NCBI GenBank assembly: GCA_902604065.1
Contig: CACKXF010000006.1
Location: 1 to 52,412, forward strand
Origin: an uncultured Pelagibacteraceae bacterium
Lineage (GTDB): Bacteria > Pseudomonadota > Alphaproteobacteria > Pelagibacterales > Pelagibacteraceae
Reading direction: 5' to 3'
Length of the DNA stretch: 52,412 bases
Below the pieces are notes generated by a model that did no database searches, was not told where the DNA came from, and saw only the letters and a program-made list of their open reading frames with translations. The position numbers and the translations under genes are program-made. Shown piece after piece: positions 6,466 through 26,137 of this stretch (positions within the stretch are counted from its first letter, which is position 1; every line of letters starts with the position of its first letter).

Positions 6466-6719
6466 TATTTTATAAATTCTCTTAAATTAAAATGATCATT
6501 TACAACAATATAGTATATTAAAGCAAAAATTAATGTAGTAATTAAGGTTGTGTATAAAAATTTTTTTAGAATATTTGGATTTTTAGGTGCTCCTGGGTCT
6601 ATACCTTCTAAATTATTATTAAATTTCTTAGTATCGTGTTTAATGCCTATTGGTAAAACTGAAAAAAAAATTATCCACCAGATTATAACGTATATGACAA
6701 TTGAACCGGTTATACTCAT
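6465..6719 (-). CDS. DUF1467 family small membrane protein
   Basis: An 84-residue protein with two predicted membrane helices (roughly 5-27 and 52-73) joined by a loop containing the DPGAP sequence characteristic of the DUF1467 family. The function is unknown. It sits between rnj and proS, with one-base TAATG overlaps on both sides, a placement that recurs in alphaproteobacteria. Its tight coupling suggests it is translated together with its neighbours, but nothing in the sequence says what it does. Confidence 0.85.
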   Translation of the reverse strand: MSITGSIVIYVIIWWIIFFSVLPIGIKHDTKKFNNNLEGIDPGAPKNPNILKKFLYTTLITTLIFALIYYIVVNDHFNLREFIK

Positions 6720-8377
6720 TAAATTCTAGCCACATTAACGTTGGTGAAAGGTCTTTTACCAGTTTTTTCTTTAACTATTTTTCTACAGTTATGTTTAATT
6801 GTATCGATTAAATTTTTCTCTTGATTAAAATTATTTACTGCAAAGCTTTTACAAGTTTTTATAATCTGATCCTCTAAATCAAATTTAAATGTCTCGCTTA
6901 GTTCTTCTTCTGGAATTCCTCTAAAAGATATGATGGGTTTTTTTATTTTTCCATTATTTAAAATTATTAATGTTATCTCAAGTAAGCCATTGATTGAAAT
7001 ATTTTTTCTTTCTTTTATAGATAAAGAGTCTAATCCTACTGCAATTTTTCCATCTAAGTAAATTTTACCAGTGGGAGCCTTGTCTATTATTTCAGGTTGT
7101 TGGTCCTTAGATATTTTTATAATATCTCCGTTTTCAACTTTAAGATTAAATGGTATTTGCATTTCTTTTGCGAATGAAATGTGTTCTTTCATATGCCTAT
7201 GTTCACCATGAACCGGTATTATACACCTGGGTTTAACCCATTTATACATATCTTTTAAATCATCTCTATTCGCATGACCTGATACATGCACAAAAGCATT
7301 CTCTTCAGTAATAACTTCAATATCTCTTTTAACAATTAAGTTTTGAAGTGCGTAAAGTTTTTTTTCATTTCCTGGAATTATTTTTGATGAAAAAATTATA
7401 GTGTCACCGCTTTCTAAATTGACGTCTGGATGAATCTCGTTAGCTATTCTGTTTAAACCACCCATAGGTTCACCTTGGCTACCAGTGCATAGATAAATAA
7501 TATTTTCTTTAGGAATTTTATTAGCATCTCTAGGGTCAAGTGGTTCAATTACGTCTTTTAAATAACCACATTGTTTTGCAGCTTTATAAATTCTATGCAT
7601 CGATCTACCTACTAGTGAAATTTTTCTTTTAGTATGTTTTGCAATATAAAATATACTTTCCATTCTAGCTACATTTGAAGCAAAAGAAGTTACTAAAACT
7701 CTTTTTTTTTGATTTGATATTATTTTAAGTAAACTTTCTCTTACGTCTTGCTCTGAACCTGCTCTGCCAGGACTAAACACATTTGTGGAGTCACATATCA
7801 TTGCTATCACACCCTTTTCCCCTATAGCTCTTAGTTTTTTTTCATCTACTTTATTTCCGATTAATGGATTAGGATCAACTTTCCAATCACCAGTATGAAG
7901 GACAACGCCAACTGGTGTAGTAATACTTAATCCATTTGGTTCTAGGATTGAATGGGTCAAAGTTACAAAATCTATTTTAAAAGGTCCTAAATCAATCTTG
8001 CTATTCAATGCAACAATTTTTAAATAATTTGTAATATCTATTTTTTTTTCTTTAAATTTTTCTTGAATTAAAACTGCTGTGAAAGGTGTAGCATATATTT
8101 TACATTTTAATTTTGGCCATATATGAACAATAGAGCCTATATGGTCTTCGTGGGCATGAGTTAAAACTATACCTAATAGATCTTCTTTTTTTTCAATTAT
8201 GAATCCTGCATCAGGATAAATAAGGTCAATTCCTGGGATTGAATCATCCGCAAATGTTATGCCCATATCAACTATTAACCACTTTTGATTTTCTTCTGTT
8301 CCATAGGCATAAAGATTCATATTCATGCCAATTTCTCCGGAGCCTCCAAGAGGACAAAATAATAATTCTTCTTTCAT
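6719..8377 (-). CDS. rnj: Ribonuclease J
   Basis: Metallo-beta-lactamase/beta-CASP nuclease with 5'-exonuclease and endonuclease activity in RNA decay and rRNA maturation. The 552-residue protein shows the zinc-binding THAHEDHIG motif at 73-81, a second metal region LHTGDWK near 160, the beta-CASP domain with CTGSQGEP near 298, HVSGHA near 363 and PVHGEHRH near 385, followed by the C-terminal RNase J domain. The stop overlaps the start of the DUF1467 gene by one base, and the start lies 3 bp after the end of coaX. Confidence 0.95.
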   Translation of the reverse strand: MKEELLFCPLGGSGEIGMNMNLYAYGTEENQKWLIVDMGITFADDSIPGIDLIYPDAGFIIEKKEDLLGIVLTHAHEDHIGSIVHIWPKLKCKIYATPFTAVLIQEKFKEKKIDITNYLKIVALNSKIDLGPFKIDFVTLTHSILEPNGLSITTPVGVVLHTGDWKVDPNPLIGNKVDEKKLRAIGEKGVIAMICDSTNVFSPGRAGSEQDVRESLLKIISNQKKRVLVTSFASNVARMESIFYIAKHTKRKISLVGRSMHRIYKAAKQCGYLKDVIEPLDPRDANKIPKENIIYLCTGSQGEPMGGLNRIANEIHPDVNLESGDTIIFSSKIIPGNEKKLYALQNLIVKRDIEVITEENAFVHVSGHANRDDLKDMYKWVKPRCIIPVHGEHRHMKEHISFAKEMQIPFNLKVENGDIIKISKDQQPEIIDKAPTGKIYLDGKIAVGLDSLSIKERKNISINGLLEITLIILNNGKIKKPIISFRGIPEEELSETFKFDLEDQIIKTCKSFAVNNFNQEKNLIDTIKHNCRKIVKEKTGKRPFTNVNVARI

Positions 8378-8380
8378 GTT

Positions 8381-9119
8381 TTAATCAATTAATTTTAACA
8401 AGCCTTTAATGGTTAAATCTTTATCAATTTTTATTTTTTTATTTATTATATCTTTAAACAAATGAGATAAACCTCCTGTAAAAATAATTTTGAATTCTTT
8501 TTTTGTTTCTTTTTCAATCATATTTATAATATTGTCAATTAAACCTTTGTAGCCCCAATAAAAACCTGACTTAACAGCACTTTGTGTATTATTTCCAATA
8601 ATGTTTTTAATTTTAGTTAATTTGATATTAGGAATTAATTTTGCTTTAGATATCAAAGTATTTAAAGAAAGATTTACTCCAGGAGCTATAATACCCCCTT
8701 TATATGTATTTTTTAACACTACATCAAAAGTAGTAGCTGTGCCAAAATCAAGAACTATGAAATTATCTTTATAATTTATAACACTTATTGCATTTGCTAT
8801 TCTATCGGATCCAACTTGATTAATATTGACGTTAATTTTTAACATTTTTTTTAAATTAAATTGCTTTAGTTCATTTACCTCGAGTTTAAAAATTTTTTTA
8901 ACAGATTTTTTTATAATTTTAAATGCGTGAGGAACTACGCTAGAAAAAATAATTTTTCTCATATTGCTTTTATATAAGTGTAAATACCTGAGCTTTTTGT
9001 GTATATTTGAATTAGTTACATCATTTGTATTAAAAATCTTTTTTTTGACTAGTTTTTTTTTTACTATTAAAAACGCAAAGCTTTATCTCGGTATTTCCTA
9101 TATCTCCAATTATATACAT
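8381..9119 (-). pseudogene. coaX: Type III pantothenate kinase, frame broken at a run of ten A
   Basis: CoaX phosphorylates pantothenate, the first step of coenzyme A synthesis. ATG at 9119 starts MYIIGDIGNTEIKLCVF, which contains the phosphate-binding DIGNT motif, but this frame meets a stop about 28 codons in. The rest of the enzyme (VGSDRIANAI, DFGTATTFDVV, GGIIAPG, GFYWGYKG, FTGG) is in another frame, open from the region after the A-run to the stop at 8381. The two join perfectly if the run at 9053-9062 (ten T on the plus strand) is read as nine, giving 246 residues, the normal family length. It may be a sequencing error, a true frameshift mutation, or a gene rescued by polymerase slippage. 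The start overlaps birA by 10 bp. Confidence 0.88.
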
Positions 9120-9640
9120 AATTTAGTCAAAATAAATTTTTCAAAGTTAATTTTTATCTTTTTATACACATCAGATTTTTTTATTTTATTGTTGTTAAAT
9201 TTTTGAAGGTAAGATGTTTTTTTATAAGCAATCTTTGGGCTTTTATTTAAATTAATACCTATACCTACTATAAAAAATTTATTTTTTTTATATATTAATG
9301 TTTCCTGTAATACTCCACAAATTTTAGAACCTTTTATCAACAAGTCGTTTGGTAACTTTACAGAAATTTTTTCATTAACAAATTTTTCTAAACTTTTTTT
9401 TAATACCGTATAAATTTTTTTTGAAATTGATTTAAGCAAAATATTTTTTTTTATGCTAAAATAAATAGTGATAAATATATTTCCTTGATAAGATATCCAT
9501 CTTCTACCATATTGTCCTCGACCTTTCTTTTGATTTTTAGCAATTATCAAAGTTGGTTTAGTTTGACCTTTATTAATCCTTCTAATTGCTACGTTATTGG
9601 TGCTATCAACGCTTTTATATTTTATTATCTGCATTTTCAT
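9110..9640 (-). CDS. birA: Biotin-protein ligase, catalytic domain only
   Basis: Attaches biotin to the carrier protein of acetyl-CoA carboxylase and related enzymes. Starting at ATG 9640 gives 176 residues, with the biotinyl-AMP motif GRGQYGRRW at 40-48 and the SKICGVL stretch carrying the usual catalytic lysine. There is no N-terminal helix-turn-helix, so it should not act as the biotin repressor, and the SH3-like C-terminal domain is very short or absent. The longer frame from 9712 adds hydrophobic residues encoded inside nuoN and is unlikely; the 9640 start makes a TAATG overlap with the nuoN stop. Confidence 0.9.
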   Translation of the reverse strand: MKMQIIKYKSVDSTNNVAIRRINKGQTKPTLIIAKNQKKGRGQYGRRWISYQGNIFITIYFSIKKNILLKSISKKIYTVLKKSLEKFVNEKISVKLPNDLLIKGSKICGVLQETLIYKKNKFFIVGIGINLNKSPKIAYKKTSYLQKFNNNKIKKSDVYKKIKINFEKFILTKLCI

Positions 9641-11049
9641 TATGTAAATAATCCCTCTAAGAATAATGTTAAAAAGGAAGGAAAAATAAAAAATAATGAT
9701 AAAATTAAACAACTTAAAAGTATAGTAGCTTTGATGCTTAAATTTCCTATATCGTCAAACTTTACTGTAGTATCATCAAAATAGATTGTTTTTATTATTT
9801 TTAAATAATAAAAAGCCGAAATAACAGTTGTTAATAAACCAATAATAGCTAAGGCGTATAATTTACTTTCTATCACAGACATAAAAATGAAGAATTTTGC
9901 AAAAAAACCACCTAGAGGAGGAATTCCTGCCAAAGAAAAAAATAAAATCAAAAAAGAAAATGCGTACAAAGGTTTTTGTTTAGATAATCCAGACAGATCT
10001 TCTATCTTCTCTGTATACTTACCATCTATCTTCATTAAGTATAGACATCCAAAAGTACCTAAATTCATAATTACATAAATTGTAATATAAATTATTGTAG
10101 CAGTATATCCTAGCGTACTACCAGTGGCTACACCGGCTAATGCATAGCCCATATGACTTATTGAACTATAAGCTAATAGTCTTTTAATATTTTTTTGACC
10201 TATAGCTGCGACGCTTCCAAGTATCATTGATGCAATAGAAATAAATATTATAATAGTTTGCCACTCTTCTAAAATATTTTTAAAAGGCAAATCCATAAAT
10301 CTTATTATAACTGCTAGTCCTACAGCTTTTGGAACTACAGCAAAAAAATTAGTTATTGATGTTGGAGCTCCTTGATACACATCTGGTGTCCACATGTGAA
10401 AAGGTACAGCAGACACTTTGAACGCTAAGCCAACTAATATAAAAACCATAGCAAATACAGCGCCAGTATTTTGTGAGGTTAAACTGATACTAATTTCTTC
10501 AAAGTTTGTTGACCCTGTAAAACCATAAAGTAATGAGCATCCATACAAAAGAAGGCCTGATGATAATGCACTTAAAACAAAATATTTAATTCCAGCTTCT
10601 GATGAAATCGTGTTGTCTCTATCTATTGCTGCTAAAACATATAGTGCAAGAGATTGAAGCTCTAAACCAAGATAGAACAATATAAGATCATTAGAACTTA
10701 GCATAAAAAACATGCCTAATATTGAGAACATAATTACAACGTGATATTCAAATTTGTTTAATTTGTTATCTTTAATAAACTGATCGGACGAGAAAAAAAT
10801 AAATAAGCTTGATATTAAAATTAGTATTTTAAAATAATCAGAAAATTTATCGCTAATAAAAGATTTTAGAAAAATTTCAGGCCCACTACCCCAATCCGAG
10901 ATTATAGAATATACCACACTTAACAAAACTAAAGTTGATAGCTTTACTACTAAATTAAAACTATTATTAAAAAAAACTCCAGCCATTAAAACTATACAAA
11001 TTCCTGAAAATAATATGATTTCTGGTAATAATATATTTATATTTTCCAT
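9640..11049 (-). CDS. nuoN: NADH-quinone oxidoreductase subunit N
   Basis: Antiporter-like proton-pumping subunit of the complex I membrane arm. The 469-residue protein has about 14 predicted membrane helices; the LLAYSSISHMGY stretch near residues 292-303 and the preceding KAVGLAVIIRF carry the conserved lysines of this family. It is last of the fourteen nuo genes and overlaps nuoM and birA by one base each (TAATG). The NuoL/M/N group is similar internally; length and final position in the operon identify N. Confidence 0.96.
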   Translation of the reverse strand: MENINILLPEIILFSGICIVLMAGVFFNNSFNLVVKLSTLVLLSVVYSIISDWGSGPEIFLKSFISDKFSDYFKILILISSLFIFFSSDQFIKDNKLNKFEYHVVIMFSILGMFFMLSSNDLILFYLGLELQSLALYVLAAIDRDNTISSEAGIKYFVLSALSSGLLLYGCSLLYGFTGSTNFEEISISLTSQNTGAVFAMVFILVGLAFKVSAVPFHMWTPDVYQGAPTSITNFFAVVPKAVGLAVIIRFMDLPFKNILEEWQTIIIFISIASMILGSVAAIGQKNIKRLLAYSSISHMGYALAGVATGSTLGYTATIIYITIYVIMNLGTFGCLYLMKIDGKYTEKIEDLSGLSKQKPLYAFSFLILFFSLAGIPPLGGFFAKFFIFMSVIESKLYALAIIGLLTTVISAFYYLKIIKTIYFDDTTVKFDDIGNLSIKATILLSCLILSLFFIFPSFLTLFLEGLFT

Positions 11050-14447: not shown

Positions 14448-14762
14448 TTAACCTTTCATTTCATGAATATCTTCAACTCTAATTGAACCTCTGTTTCTGT
14501 AAAATATAACTATTATTGCAAGACCGATGGCAGCCTCTGCAGCTGCTACTGTTAAAATTAGCATTGTAAATATTTGGCCTAATAAATCACCAGAAAAAAT
14601 AGAAAAAGAAATTAAATTAATGTTTACGGATAACAATATTAACTCAACAGACATTAAAATAACTATGACATTTTTCCTATTTAAAAAAATTCCAATTACA
14701 CCAAGAAAGAATATAACTGCTCCTAATGTTAAATAATGTCCTAGGCCTATCTCAATCATCAA
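14448..14762 (-). CDS. nuoK: NADH-quinone oxidoreductase subunit K
   Basis: Small three-helix membrane subunit of complex I, 104 residues, the usual family length. Conserved membrane-embedded glutamates appear in [10 protein letters not shown] (near residue 40) and [10 protein letters not shown] (near 75), both needed for proton pumping in the family. It overlaps the 3' end of nuoJ by 11 bp. A second ATG three bases after the first would serve equally well as start. Confidence 0.97.
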
Positions 14763-15381
14763 TTTTTACTCCTTTATTGAACTCAACATCTTTTAACGAT
14801 ACAGCGGACGATTTATCTCTAGAAATTTGCTTTAAATAGCTTTGAGTTTTTACATTCTCTCTCTTTCTATATGTTAGTATTATTGCTCCTACCATTGAAA
14901 GCAGAAGAATTATCCCTGACAACTGAAAATAAAGAACATAGTCGGTATACATTACACTACCAATTGAATGGGTATTTGTAATTGATGTATCAATGATTAA
15001 ATTTGAGCTGGACATGACATCTTTTTTATATTTCCAACCACCTGTTACTACTAAAAGTTCAAGAAATATCAAAACTGAAACTATTAATCCTGAGGGTATA
15101 TGAGTAGATTTTTGACCTATAAACCACGATTGTTTTTGTTGAGCAACATTTAACATCATAACCACAAACAGGAATAATACTGCTACAGCTCCAACATATA
15201 CAATTAATAATATCATACCTAAAAATTCTGCCCCAACCATAATAAATAGACAGCCGACAGATATAAAATCTAAAATTAAGAAAAATACAGAGTTTACTGT
15301 GCTTCTAGAAGTTATTACCATTAACGCAGAAAAAATAGCTAATATTGAAAAAAAGTAAAAAAATATTGCGTGAGCTAACAT
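14752..15381 (-). CDS. nuoJ: NADH-quinone oxidoreductase subunit J
   Basis: Five-helix membrane subunit of complex I, 209 residues. The conserved [21 protein letters not shown] region near residues 51-71 is clear. The C-terminal tail of about 35 residues after the last helix is charged and cytoplasmic. It is placed between nuoI and nuoK, overlapping nuoK by 11 bp. Confidence 0.96.
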
Positions 15382-15867
15382 TTATTTATAAATTTTATCC
15401 GTTTTGATATTCTTTGCTAGCACGGACTCCCATCTGTCTCCATTGTCTAATAGCTTTTCTTTATTGTAGTAAAGTTCTTCTCTTGTTTCTGTAGCAAATT
15501 CAAAATTTGGTCCTTGAACTATCGCATCAACAGGACAAGATTCTTGACAAAGTCCGCAGTAAATACATTTTAGCATATCAATGTCATATCTTGTAGTTTT
15601 TCTACTCCCATCTTTTCTTTCTTCGGACTCTATTGTTATCGCTTGAGCTGGACAAACTGCTTCGCACAACTTACAAGCTATACATCTCTCTTCACCGTCA
15701 GGATATCGCCTAAGCGCGTGTTCTCCTCTAAATCTTGGACTTATCGAACCTTTTTCAAAAGGATAATTAATAGTTTTTTTAGATTTAAATATTTCTTTTA
15801 TTGCTTTTGCAATTGCCAAAATAAATTCTGTTAGAAATATTGTTTTTAAAAACCTACCAAAATTCAC
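15382..15867 (-). CDS. nuoI: NADH-quinone oxidoreductase subunit I, two 4Fe-4S clusters
   Basis: Ferredoxin-like subunit passing electrons to NuoB. The 161 residues contain two cluster motifs, [12 protein letters not shown] near 61-72 and [12 protein letters not shown] near 100-111, each followed by a proline as in 8Fe-8S ferredoxins. The start codon is GTG at 15867, sharing its first G with the TAG stop of nuoH (TAGTG). The upstream KRYEGEH-like stretch [18 protein letters not shown] is the family signature. Confidence 0.97.
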
Positions 15868-16871
15868 TAAAAGGCTCCTTTCGGTAATTTATCAAAATAA
15901 AGTAAGAAACTTGCTGTTAAAACTACATAAATTAAAGACAATGGTAAAAATACTTTCCAACCTAATCTCATAAGTTGATCATAACGATACCTGGGTACAA
16001 TAGCTTTTATAATTGCAAATAAAATAAATAAAAATAATATTTTAAATATCATCCAAAAAGGAGCAGGAACTAAATTTATTGGATAAATATCTATTGGAGG
16101 CAGCCATCCTCCTAAAAATAAAATTGATCCCATCGCACACATTAAGAGAATATTTGCATATTCTCCTAGCCAAAACATAGCATACATCATTCCAGAATAT
16201 TCAGTTTGATATCCTGCAACTAATTCAGCTTCAGCTTCAGGCAAATCAAAAGGAGGTCTATTTGTTTCGGCTAAAGCGGATATGAAAAACACCACAAACA
16301 TTGGGAAAAGTGGAATTACATACCAAAGATTTTTTTGAGCCATGACAATATCGTTAAGATTAAGAGATCCAACACATAATAGTACGTTAATAATTATTAT
16401 TCCTATGGATACTTCATAAGAAACCATTTGCGCTGCAGATCTAATAGCTCCAAGAAAAGGGTATTTTGAATTTGAAGCCCAACCCCCCATTATTATTCCG
16501 TAAACTCCTAAAGATGAGATTGCAAACAAATATAATATTCCCACATTTATATCTGATAAAACCATCGTTTCACTTAAAGGTATCACAGCCCAGGCTACTA
16601 AAGCTAAAGTCATAGTTATTATCGGAGCAAGGATAAAAATTGTTTTGTTTGCACCTGCTGGGATAATTATTTCTTTGAAAATATATTTTAATGCATCTGC
16701 TAAAGTTTGAAATAAACCAAAAGGTCCAACAACATTTGGGCCTTTTCTTTTTTGGACTAATCCCCATACTCTTCTATCTAACCAAACTATCATTGCAACT
16801 GATACTAGTATAGGAATGACCAAATATAAAATTTTGTAAACTTCATTAAACAAAGTTATTAAATTGTCCAT
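15867..16871 (-). CDS. nuoH: NADH-quinone oxidoreductase subunit H
   Basis: Membrane subunit at the junction of the arms that helps form the quinone channel. The 334 residues have eight or nine helices; [21 protein letters not shown] near residues 37-57 and [20 protein letters not shown] near 203-222 are the two family signatures. It overlaps nuoI by one base and lies 1 bp after nuoG. Confidence 0.97.
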
Positions 16872-22012: not shown

Positions 22013-22613
22013 TTTTTTTAACCTCTTTAATATCTTTCAAGTATTTAGTACCTTCCCAAGGACTATTGAAATCAAAATTTCTATAATTTTGTTCAAGTTT
22101 TACAGGTTCATAAATTACTTTTTTTTCTTTTTCACTGTACCTAACTTCATTAAATCCTGTTAAAGGAAAATCTTTTCTTAAAGGATGACCTTTAAAATTA
22201 TAATCTGTAAGTATTCGTCTTAAATCTGGATGGTTGACAAATTTAACCCCATACATGTCAAATACTTCTCTCTCCATCCAATTAGCAGAAGGAAATATTT
22301 TCGTTATTGATTGTATTTTTTCATCAATTTCAAATTTTGTAGAAATTTTAATTCTTATATTATTTTCAATAGATAGAAGTAAATAAACTAATTCAAATCT
22401 TTTTTCTTTATTGGGATAATCTATTGCAGCAATATCTATTAATTGTTTAAATTTTAATTTATCATCTGATTTTAAAAATTGTATAACATCTGTTATTTTG
22501 TCGATAGAAATTTCAATCATTAATTCATTAAATAAAATTTTTGAAGCTAAAATTTTGCTAGATAACTCAGAATTAACTATTTTTTCTAATTTTTTTAAAT
22601 CAGTATATGTCAT
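21999..22613 (-). CDS. nuoC: NADH-quinone oxidoreductase subunit C
   Basis: 30-kDa peripheral arm subunit without cofactor. The 204 residues contain the family signature [29 protein letters not shown]-like region near 114-140, followed by [12 protein letters not shown]. It is a stand-alone protein here. Three bases separate it from nuoB. Confidence 0.96.
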
Positions 22614-22616
22614 ATT

Positions 22617-23153
22617 TTATCTTTGAATATCGCCTTCTCGTCTAATTTTTTTTTGTAGCTGAAGTATTCCATATAACAACGCCTCTGCAGAAGGAGGACA
22701 TCCAGGGACATAAATATCTACTGGAACTATTTTATCACAACCTCTTACTACAGAGTAAGAATAGTGATAGTAGCCCCCACCATTTGCGCAGCTGCCCATA
22801 GAGATTACATATCTAGGTTCAGGCATTTGATCATAAACTTTTCTTAAAGCTGGAGCCATTTTATTTGTTAAGGTGCCAGCAACAATCATTACATCAGATT
22901 GTCTTGGTGAAGCTCTTGGGGCTGCACCAAACCTTTCAAGATCATATCTTGGCATAGAAGCGTGCATCATTTCTACCGCACAACAAGCTAAGCCAAATGT
23001 CATCCAATGAAGAGAGCCGGTCCTTGCCCAATTGATTAAATTATTAGTCGATGTTGTTATAAAACCTTTTTCAGCAAAATCTTTTGCTATTTCTCTAAAT
23101 TCTTCAGGAATTTTTTTTAACTTCTCATTTGTATCTATGATTTTCATTCCCAT
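22617..23153 (-). CDS. nuoB: NADH-quinone oxidoreductase subunit B, N2 cluster
   Basis: Carries the terminal 4Fe-4S cluster N2 that reduces quinone. The tandem cysteines [10 protein letters not shown], the distal cysteine in [14 protein letters not shown], and [14 protein letters not shown] are present. I chose ATG 23153 (178 residues) because AGGGAG lies 7 bases upstream (23161-23166). The alternatives are ATG 23147, which makes an ATGA overlap with the nuoA stop, and a longer frame to 23174. Confidence 0.96.
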
Positions 23154-26054: not shown

Positions 26055-26132
26055 TGGCGGGAGTGACGGGACTCGAACCCGCGGCCTCCTGCGTGACAGG
26101 CAGGCGCTCTAACCAAACTGAGCTACACCCCC
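26055..26132 (-). tRNA. tRNA-Asp (anticodon GTC)
   Basis: A 78-base cloverleaf with encoded CCA. The acceptor stem pairs GGGGGTG with CACTCCC (one G-T wobble), the anticodon loop is CTGTCAC giving GTC, and the T arm is GCGGG-TTCGAGT-CCCGT. It lies 5 bp downstream of tRNA-Val on the same strand, so both are probably cut from one transcript. Its 3' end points at the methyltransferase/membrane-protein islet. Confidence 0.97.
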
Positions 26133-26137
26133 ACTAA

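Follow-up and report, generated by a model that had tools for sequence, protein, structure and literature searches.

Organization of the coaX locus

We analysed a stretch of 52,412 nucleotides, called the window here, and focused on a coaX gene that lies on the minus strand between two genes of the same orientation. Both neighbours were named by eye: a birA-like gene is found upstream (9110 to 9640) and an rnj-like gene, with one open frame, downstream (6719 to 8377). The ORF listed for the birA-like gene begins with a TTG at 9712, and the ATG at 9640 is our choice of start. The coaX start codon overlaps the 3' end of this upstream gene, so that the two genes have 10 bases in common.

As sequenced, coaX is broken in frame by one extra A within a run of ten adenines (A10, minus strand; T10 on the plus strand, 9053 to 9062), which comes right after codon 19. 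The ATG at 9119 to 9117 opens an N-terminal frame of 29 codons followed by a stop (9030 to 9119, minus strand), which reads MYIIGDIGNTEIKLCVFNSKKKTSQKKDF* and contains the DIGNT motif (DxGNT), which we take to be phosphate-binding. The body of the type III pantothenate kinase (P0001, 226 amino acids; 8381 to 9061, minus strand) lies in the next frame, which is open from the A10 run down to 8381. Translation from the first ATG within the body (8962) would yield a product of 193 amino acids that lacks the DIGNT motif.

The position and size of the break were established as follows. In the nucleotide alignment, the codons on both sides of A10 are in phase with those of the relatives, indicating that the indel lies inside A10 and that the window carries one A beyond the expected frame. 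The adjacent A8 (9039 to 9046) is already in the downstream frame. When the length of the run was varied, nine A restored a frame of 245 residues and twelve A one of 246 residues, and all other lengths (7, 8, 10, 11, 13 and 14 A) led to a stop after 22 to 30 amino acids. Ribosomal frameshifting was also considered: relative to the N-terminal piece, the body is in the +1 frame, and the third frame stops at once. The original prediction that coaX is split by one base at A10 was thus confirmed by the frames, the alignment and the run-length test. Its expectation that nine A would give a full enzyme of 246 residues was right about the frame but not about the length, which is 245 residues; 246 residues need twelve A.

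The A10 run is one of eight A/T runs of at least 10 bases in the 52-kb window, and the site is GC poor, since five 500-base windows over it have a GC content of 19 to 23% (percentile 2 to 13 of the window). The coaX break was also picked up by tblastn with ORFs from 9 of 12 reference genomes, and it was the sole break in the window supported by more than one reference. A frame signal at 22613 to 22655, seen in many relatives, was rejected since it reflects the overlap of nuoB and nuoC via one G070 ORF. Another frame signal, at a C5 run (26128 to 26133), was seen against one 89-residue G070 ORF only.

coaX encodes a constrained type III pantothenate kinase

The kinase body matched PF03309 (Pan_kinase) at 150 bits (cut-off 24.7; E = 9e-44) and TIGR00671 at 155.7 bits (cut-off 58.2). 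With the body alone, the equivalog models listed by the TIGR00671 search all stayed below their cut-offs. Sequence matches in the PDB included the solved type III kinases 2h3g, 3djc, 3bex and 2gtd. We then used 51 intact SAR11 CoaX proteins, which represent the intact genes that were fetched and not every one existing, to define conserved columns (at least 95% identical). All 49 such columns are kept across the two window pieces. The claim that the coaX motifs are all intact was therefore borne out, with the qualification that DIGNT, as sequenced, is out of frame with the body. In profile, PDB matches and conserved columns, the window coaX resembles the CoaX family (PF03309, TIGR00671), from which it differs by the interruption of its frame within A10.

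Compared with six relatives, changes at codon positions 1 and 2 amounted to 0.30 to 0.38 of those at position 3. By this measure, coaX ranked 35 to 43 among 46 to 50 genes, meaning that it is constrained, yet faster than the median gene. The codon-position pattern fits a gene that would have been under selection until recently, or would still be so; a recent indel cannot be dated by it.

The window belongs to the genome assembly G000, in which coaBC and coaD are open frames. The original prediction had proposed a search for a second pantothenate kinase that would remove the need for rescue. Profile searches of G000 found none, but the assembly is about 75% complete, so that this absence is weak evidence. 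Moreover, the Fumble model (PF03630), which gave no match in G000, gave no match in any control genome either and thus shows little, and the CoaA model (TIGR00554) detected just a 19-bit stretch, nothing usable.

These data bear on whether coaX could be a young pseudogene in a bacterium that salvages CoA precursors. The frame is broken and DIGNT is cut off from the body, and 13 of 140 near-complete genomes of the family have no coaX match, suggesting that loss may be possible. However, all 49 conserved columns are kept, coaBC and coaD are open, and coaX is present in every one of the 12 genus genomes with at least 90% completeness and at most 5% contamination. We thus consider a pseudogene highly improbable.

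The coaX site in related genomes

We compared the coaX site with that of the 11 nearest complete relatives available (G116, G016, G060, G157, G078, G087, G088, G098, G105, G107 and G070), which show 73 to 76% DNA identity. All 11 have a single frame at the site. Exactly nine A are found in seven of them; in the remaining four, the run is either interrupted (G105, G107 and G070) or an in-frame A11 (G016). The frameshift is thus common to none of the 11 genomes.

In the genus, a coaX match was detected in 99 of 151 genomes. Of these, 82 carry the gene as one full-length frame and 15 have it truncated by the end of a contig; in the last two, G000 and G129 (the latter at A13), it is split. Across the wider family, coaX was matched in 295 of 397 genomes, and in 127 of the 140 that are near-complete. 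We re-inspected 29 weak family matches (including G129) and 63 others (including G000), with G280 present in both sets. Among the family matches listed, further split copies are those of G204 (at A10) and G234 (at A13), and partial matches were seen in G271, G332, G348 and G368. G179, a relative of G204, has an intact coaX with A11 at the corresponding place.

Long A/T runs are the norm in coaX, since 45 of the 51 intact genes contain a run of at least 9 bases; the run reaches at least 10 in 31 genes, at least 11 in 15 and 12 in one. Long A runs are hypermutable. The extra A could accordingly be a real mutation that arose recently by replication slippage in the cell or population sequenced and is either polymorphic or being lost, and leaky slippage may soften the loss. 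The abundance of long runs, the other split copies (G129, G204 and G234) and the lack of decay in the conserved columns are consistent with this reading. It is opposed by the finding that the window split stands alone among the 11 nearest complete relatives, by the presence of two further breaks in this assembly, including one at T7, and by the absence of confirmed splits from the 800 kb scanned in six single-contig genomes, the last two findings being described below. Weighing both sides, we regard a recent mutation as possible but rather unlikely.

A special tendency of coaX to split was considered and rejected. No excess is claimed, because the G129 stretch had been selected for its coaX, split genes abound in G204, and the G234 draft consists of about 190 contigs and carries coaX on two of them. 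The coaX pieces of G234 are located on contigs 78 and 87 (L125 and L155), which start with unrelated-looking sequence and are possibly chimeric. In a separate observation, contig ends cut 15 of the 99 genus copies compared to about 5 expected at random, assuming 30 contigs per 900 kb (binomial P of about 1e-4). The region around coaX is poor in GC, and low coverage may result from this.

One-base breaks in draft and single-contig genomes

To estimate the error background, we used a reference-based and a reference-free scan. In the former, the window was compared by tblastn with the syntenic regions of 12 relatives (576 kb). Several references supported one break in the window, namely coaX, and six in the relatives. 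G060 has two of these six, and G107, G016, G088 and G129 have one apiece; they lie at runs of 6 to 13 bases or where no run is obvious. Single-reference signals were left out of this count, as was a seventh break (G016, two references) that corresponds to the nuoB/nuoC overlap.

In the reference-free scan, both halves had to span at least 40 codons and the break had to lie at a run; the window coaX is below this detection limit. In 252 kb of G000, composed of the window and ten further stretches, three pairs were flagged at a run. Pfam confirmed the split of glpX and that of a GT4 glycosyltransferase gene, with one half of each scoring under the cut-off. The third pair was rejected, since one member is an entire Ldh_2 gene and the other a neighbouring gene. 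The two confirmed splits lie in the 200 kb of G000 outside the window, on contig 5 (L117): glpX at 9981 to 10923, split at T7, and the glycosyltransferase gene at 14483 to 16610, split at A10. The glpX halves cover positions 4 to 265 and 264 to 307 of PF03320, and the second half scored 23.7 bits, below the cut-off of 27 bits. The glycosyltransferase halves match Glyco_transf_4 (18.9 bits, below the cut-off) and then Glycos_transf_1 (95 bits).

Together with coaX, this makes three breaks in 252 kb of G000, or about one per 84 kb, and all three can be read as +1. Indeed, glpX would have T7 in place of T6 and the glycosyltransferase gene A10 in place of A9, although -2 is also possible. A run of seven T is a poor slippage site, and rescue by slippage there is implausible. 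The two additional +1 breaks, one of them at T7, thus point to a problem of the consensus and not to a device specific to coaX.

Among the 12 relatives, the reference-free scan flagged six pairs. The G129 coaX and the G088 dxr were confirmed, the first half of dxr being below the cut-off, and three pairs were unsupported as splits by Pfam. In one G088 pair, neither half had a family match in Pfam; it was dropped from the confirmed count, which makes the contrast between draft and closed genomes weaker. For comparison, we scanned 800 kb of six single-contig SAR11 genomes, with a run threshold of at least 7 for G192 and G200 and of at least 6 for G171, G184, G207 and G224. Six pairs were flagged. 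Three consist of two adjacent complete genes and the other three lack a Pfam family match, leaving no confirmed split in these 800 kb by the reference-free scan and Pfam. In the drafts (G000 and the 12 relatives, 828 kb), four of nine flagged pairs were confirmed, compared to none of six in the single-contig genomes. At equal rates, the chance that all four splits fall in drafts is about 0.07, and the contrast in confirmed splits is thus weak. The draft relatives break at a rate similar to that of G000, indicating that such breaks are not special to this assembly.

A closed genome with many splits is G204 (1,284,727 bases; L156 to L166), where the scan flagged 13 pairs over 220 kb. In at least six of these, a single protein is divided between the two halves. 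Besides coaX, they are squalene/phytoene synthase, Cu-oxidase_4 and PdxJ, whose halves match separate parts of the same profile, and PriA and prepilin peptidase, whose halves carry domains that belong to one protein. The first scan alone listed hemB as a further split. At least one flagged pair (Glycos_transf_2 and WecG) looks like two neighbouring genes and was rejected. From its sequence, the G204 pattern looks like systematic homopolymer error.

Taken together, the extra A in the window coaX is probably an error of the draft consensus, introduced in the reads or during assembly at a homopolymer where the window is GC poor. This reading is favoured because coaX of the relatives is intact and because the same assembly holds other one-base breaks, at T7 in glpX and A10 in the glycosyltransferase gene. 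Like known homopolymer errors of draft genomes, the G000 breaks are single-base indels that affect A/T runs of unrelated genes, but they are less frequent than those of G204. Against an error, one break per 84 kb does not point to a particularly noisy consensus, runs of nine and ten bases are usually read correctly by short-read sequencing, the contrast between drafts and single-contig genomes is weak, and the draft relatives break at a similar rate. If the consensus is in error, the organism would carry an ordinary coaX with nine A, and its 245-residue type III pantothenate kinase would be made by plain translation. Nine A in the reads or in the cells is what we infer, not what we observed. 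Of the three explanations put forward in the original prediction, an error is therefore best supported, a recent mutation comes next, and slippage appears unlikely.

Transcriptional slippage at the A10 run

Genes rescued by slippage have been described in insect endosymbionts. A review reports that 12 to 50% of endosymbiont transcripts are corrected at long poly(A) runs (PMC5009743), and a study on Blochmannia vafer reports eight genes with homopolymer frameshifts for which correction is possible (PMC3017870). For Buchnera transcripts, PMC5574713 reports that insertions and deletions occur at comparable overall rates, with 151 of 157 insertions and 16 of 57 deletions located in homopolymers, and that no restored frame was seen.

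By analogy, coaX could be stably frameshifted and work via slippage of RNA polymerase on A10, which would yield transcripts with A9 or A12. As in slippage genes, the frameshift lies at a long A/T run. Moreover, the gene encodes the sole pantothenate kinase found in G000 while coaBC and coaD are open, shows the codon-position pattern of a constrained gene, and belongs to a group, SAR11, in whose genes long runs are tolerated; the proportion of corrected endosymbiont transcripts given in PMC5009743 also speaks for this reading. However, rescue of coaX needs -1 or +2, since +1 (A11) meets an immediate stop, and the homopolymer errors in Buchnera transcripts are mostly insertions, with no restored frame reported in PMC5574713. 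The window coaX shares with the reportedly rescued genes of Buchnera and Blochmannia a single indel in a long A run, an otherwise conserved gene and an AT-rich reduced genome. It differs from them in a frameshift that is not common to the nearest relatives, in a direction that is wrong for a +1 slip and in a likely error background, and it is known here from DNA alone.

We also compared A runs in SAR11 coding sequence (G000 and other stretches) with a synonymous-codon shuffle. Runs of up to nine A are not avoided. Longer runs occur at 0.5 to 0.9 of expectation for A10, at mixed values of 0.2 to 1.8 for A11, and at 0 to 0.4 for A12 or longer, which are depleted. According to an argument in PMC1088944, slippage may be scarce in genomes where nine-base runs are not avoided; by this argument, the lack of avoidance at nine hints, indirectly, at low slippage in SAR11.

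The original prediction had held that, if the split is real, CoA synthesis here depends on slippage, and had itself named an intact frame in all relatives as a sign of an error; with 11 of 11 nearest complete relatives intact, this check came out against slippage. Dependence of the window coaX on slippage is thus unlikely. Less likely still is the broader view that coaX in SAR11 loses its frame again and again at poly(A) runs, as in G000, G129, G204 and G234, and would be kept useful by mixed mRNA from slippage on A10 to A13. In a literature search, we found no paper joining transcriptional slippage with SAR11, and the papers retrieved that name SAR11, homopolymer and frameshift included, judged by titles, none on this subject. 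If the split were real and rescued, slippage rescue would extend from insect symbionts to abundant free-living plankton, and an essential step in a streamlined, free-living cell would depend on slippage.

Under the preferred reading, a consensus error, the window coaX as it stands is a caution on one-base splits in draft genomes. In the scanned SAR11 stretches, A/T runs of at least 10 bases occur every 4 to 19 kb of total sequence, so that one-base splits in drafts need a check of the reads before they are labelled as pseudogenes or as cases of slippage.
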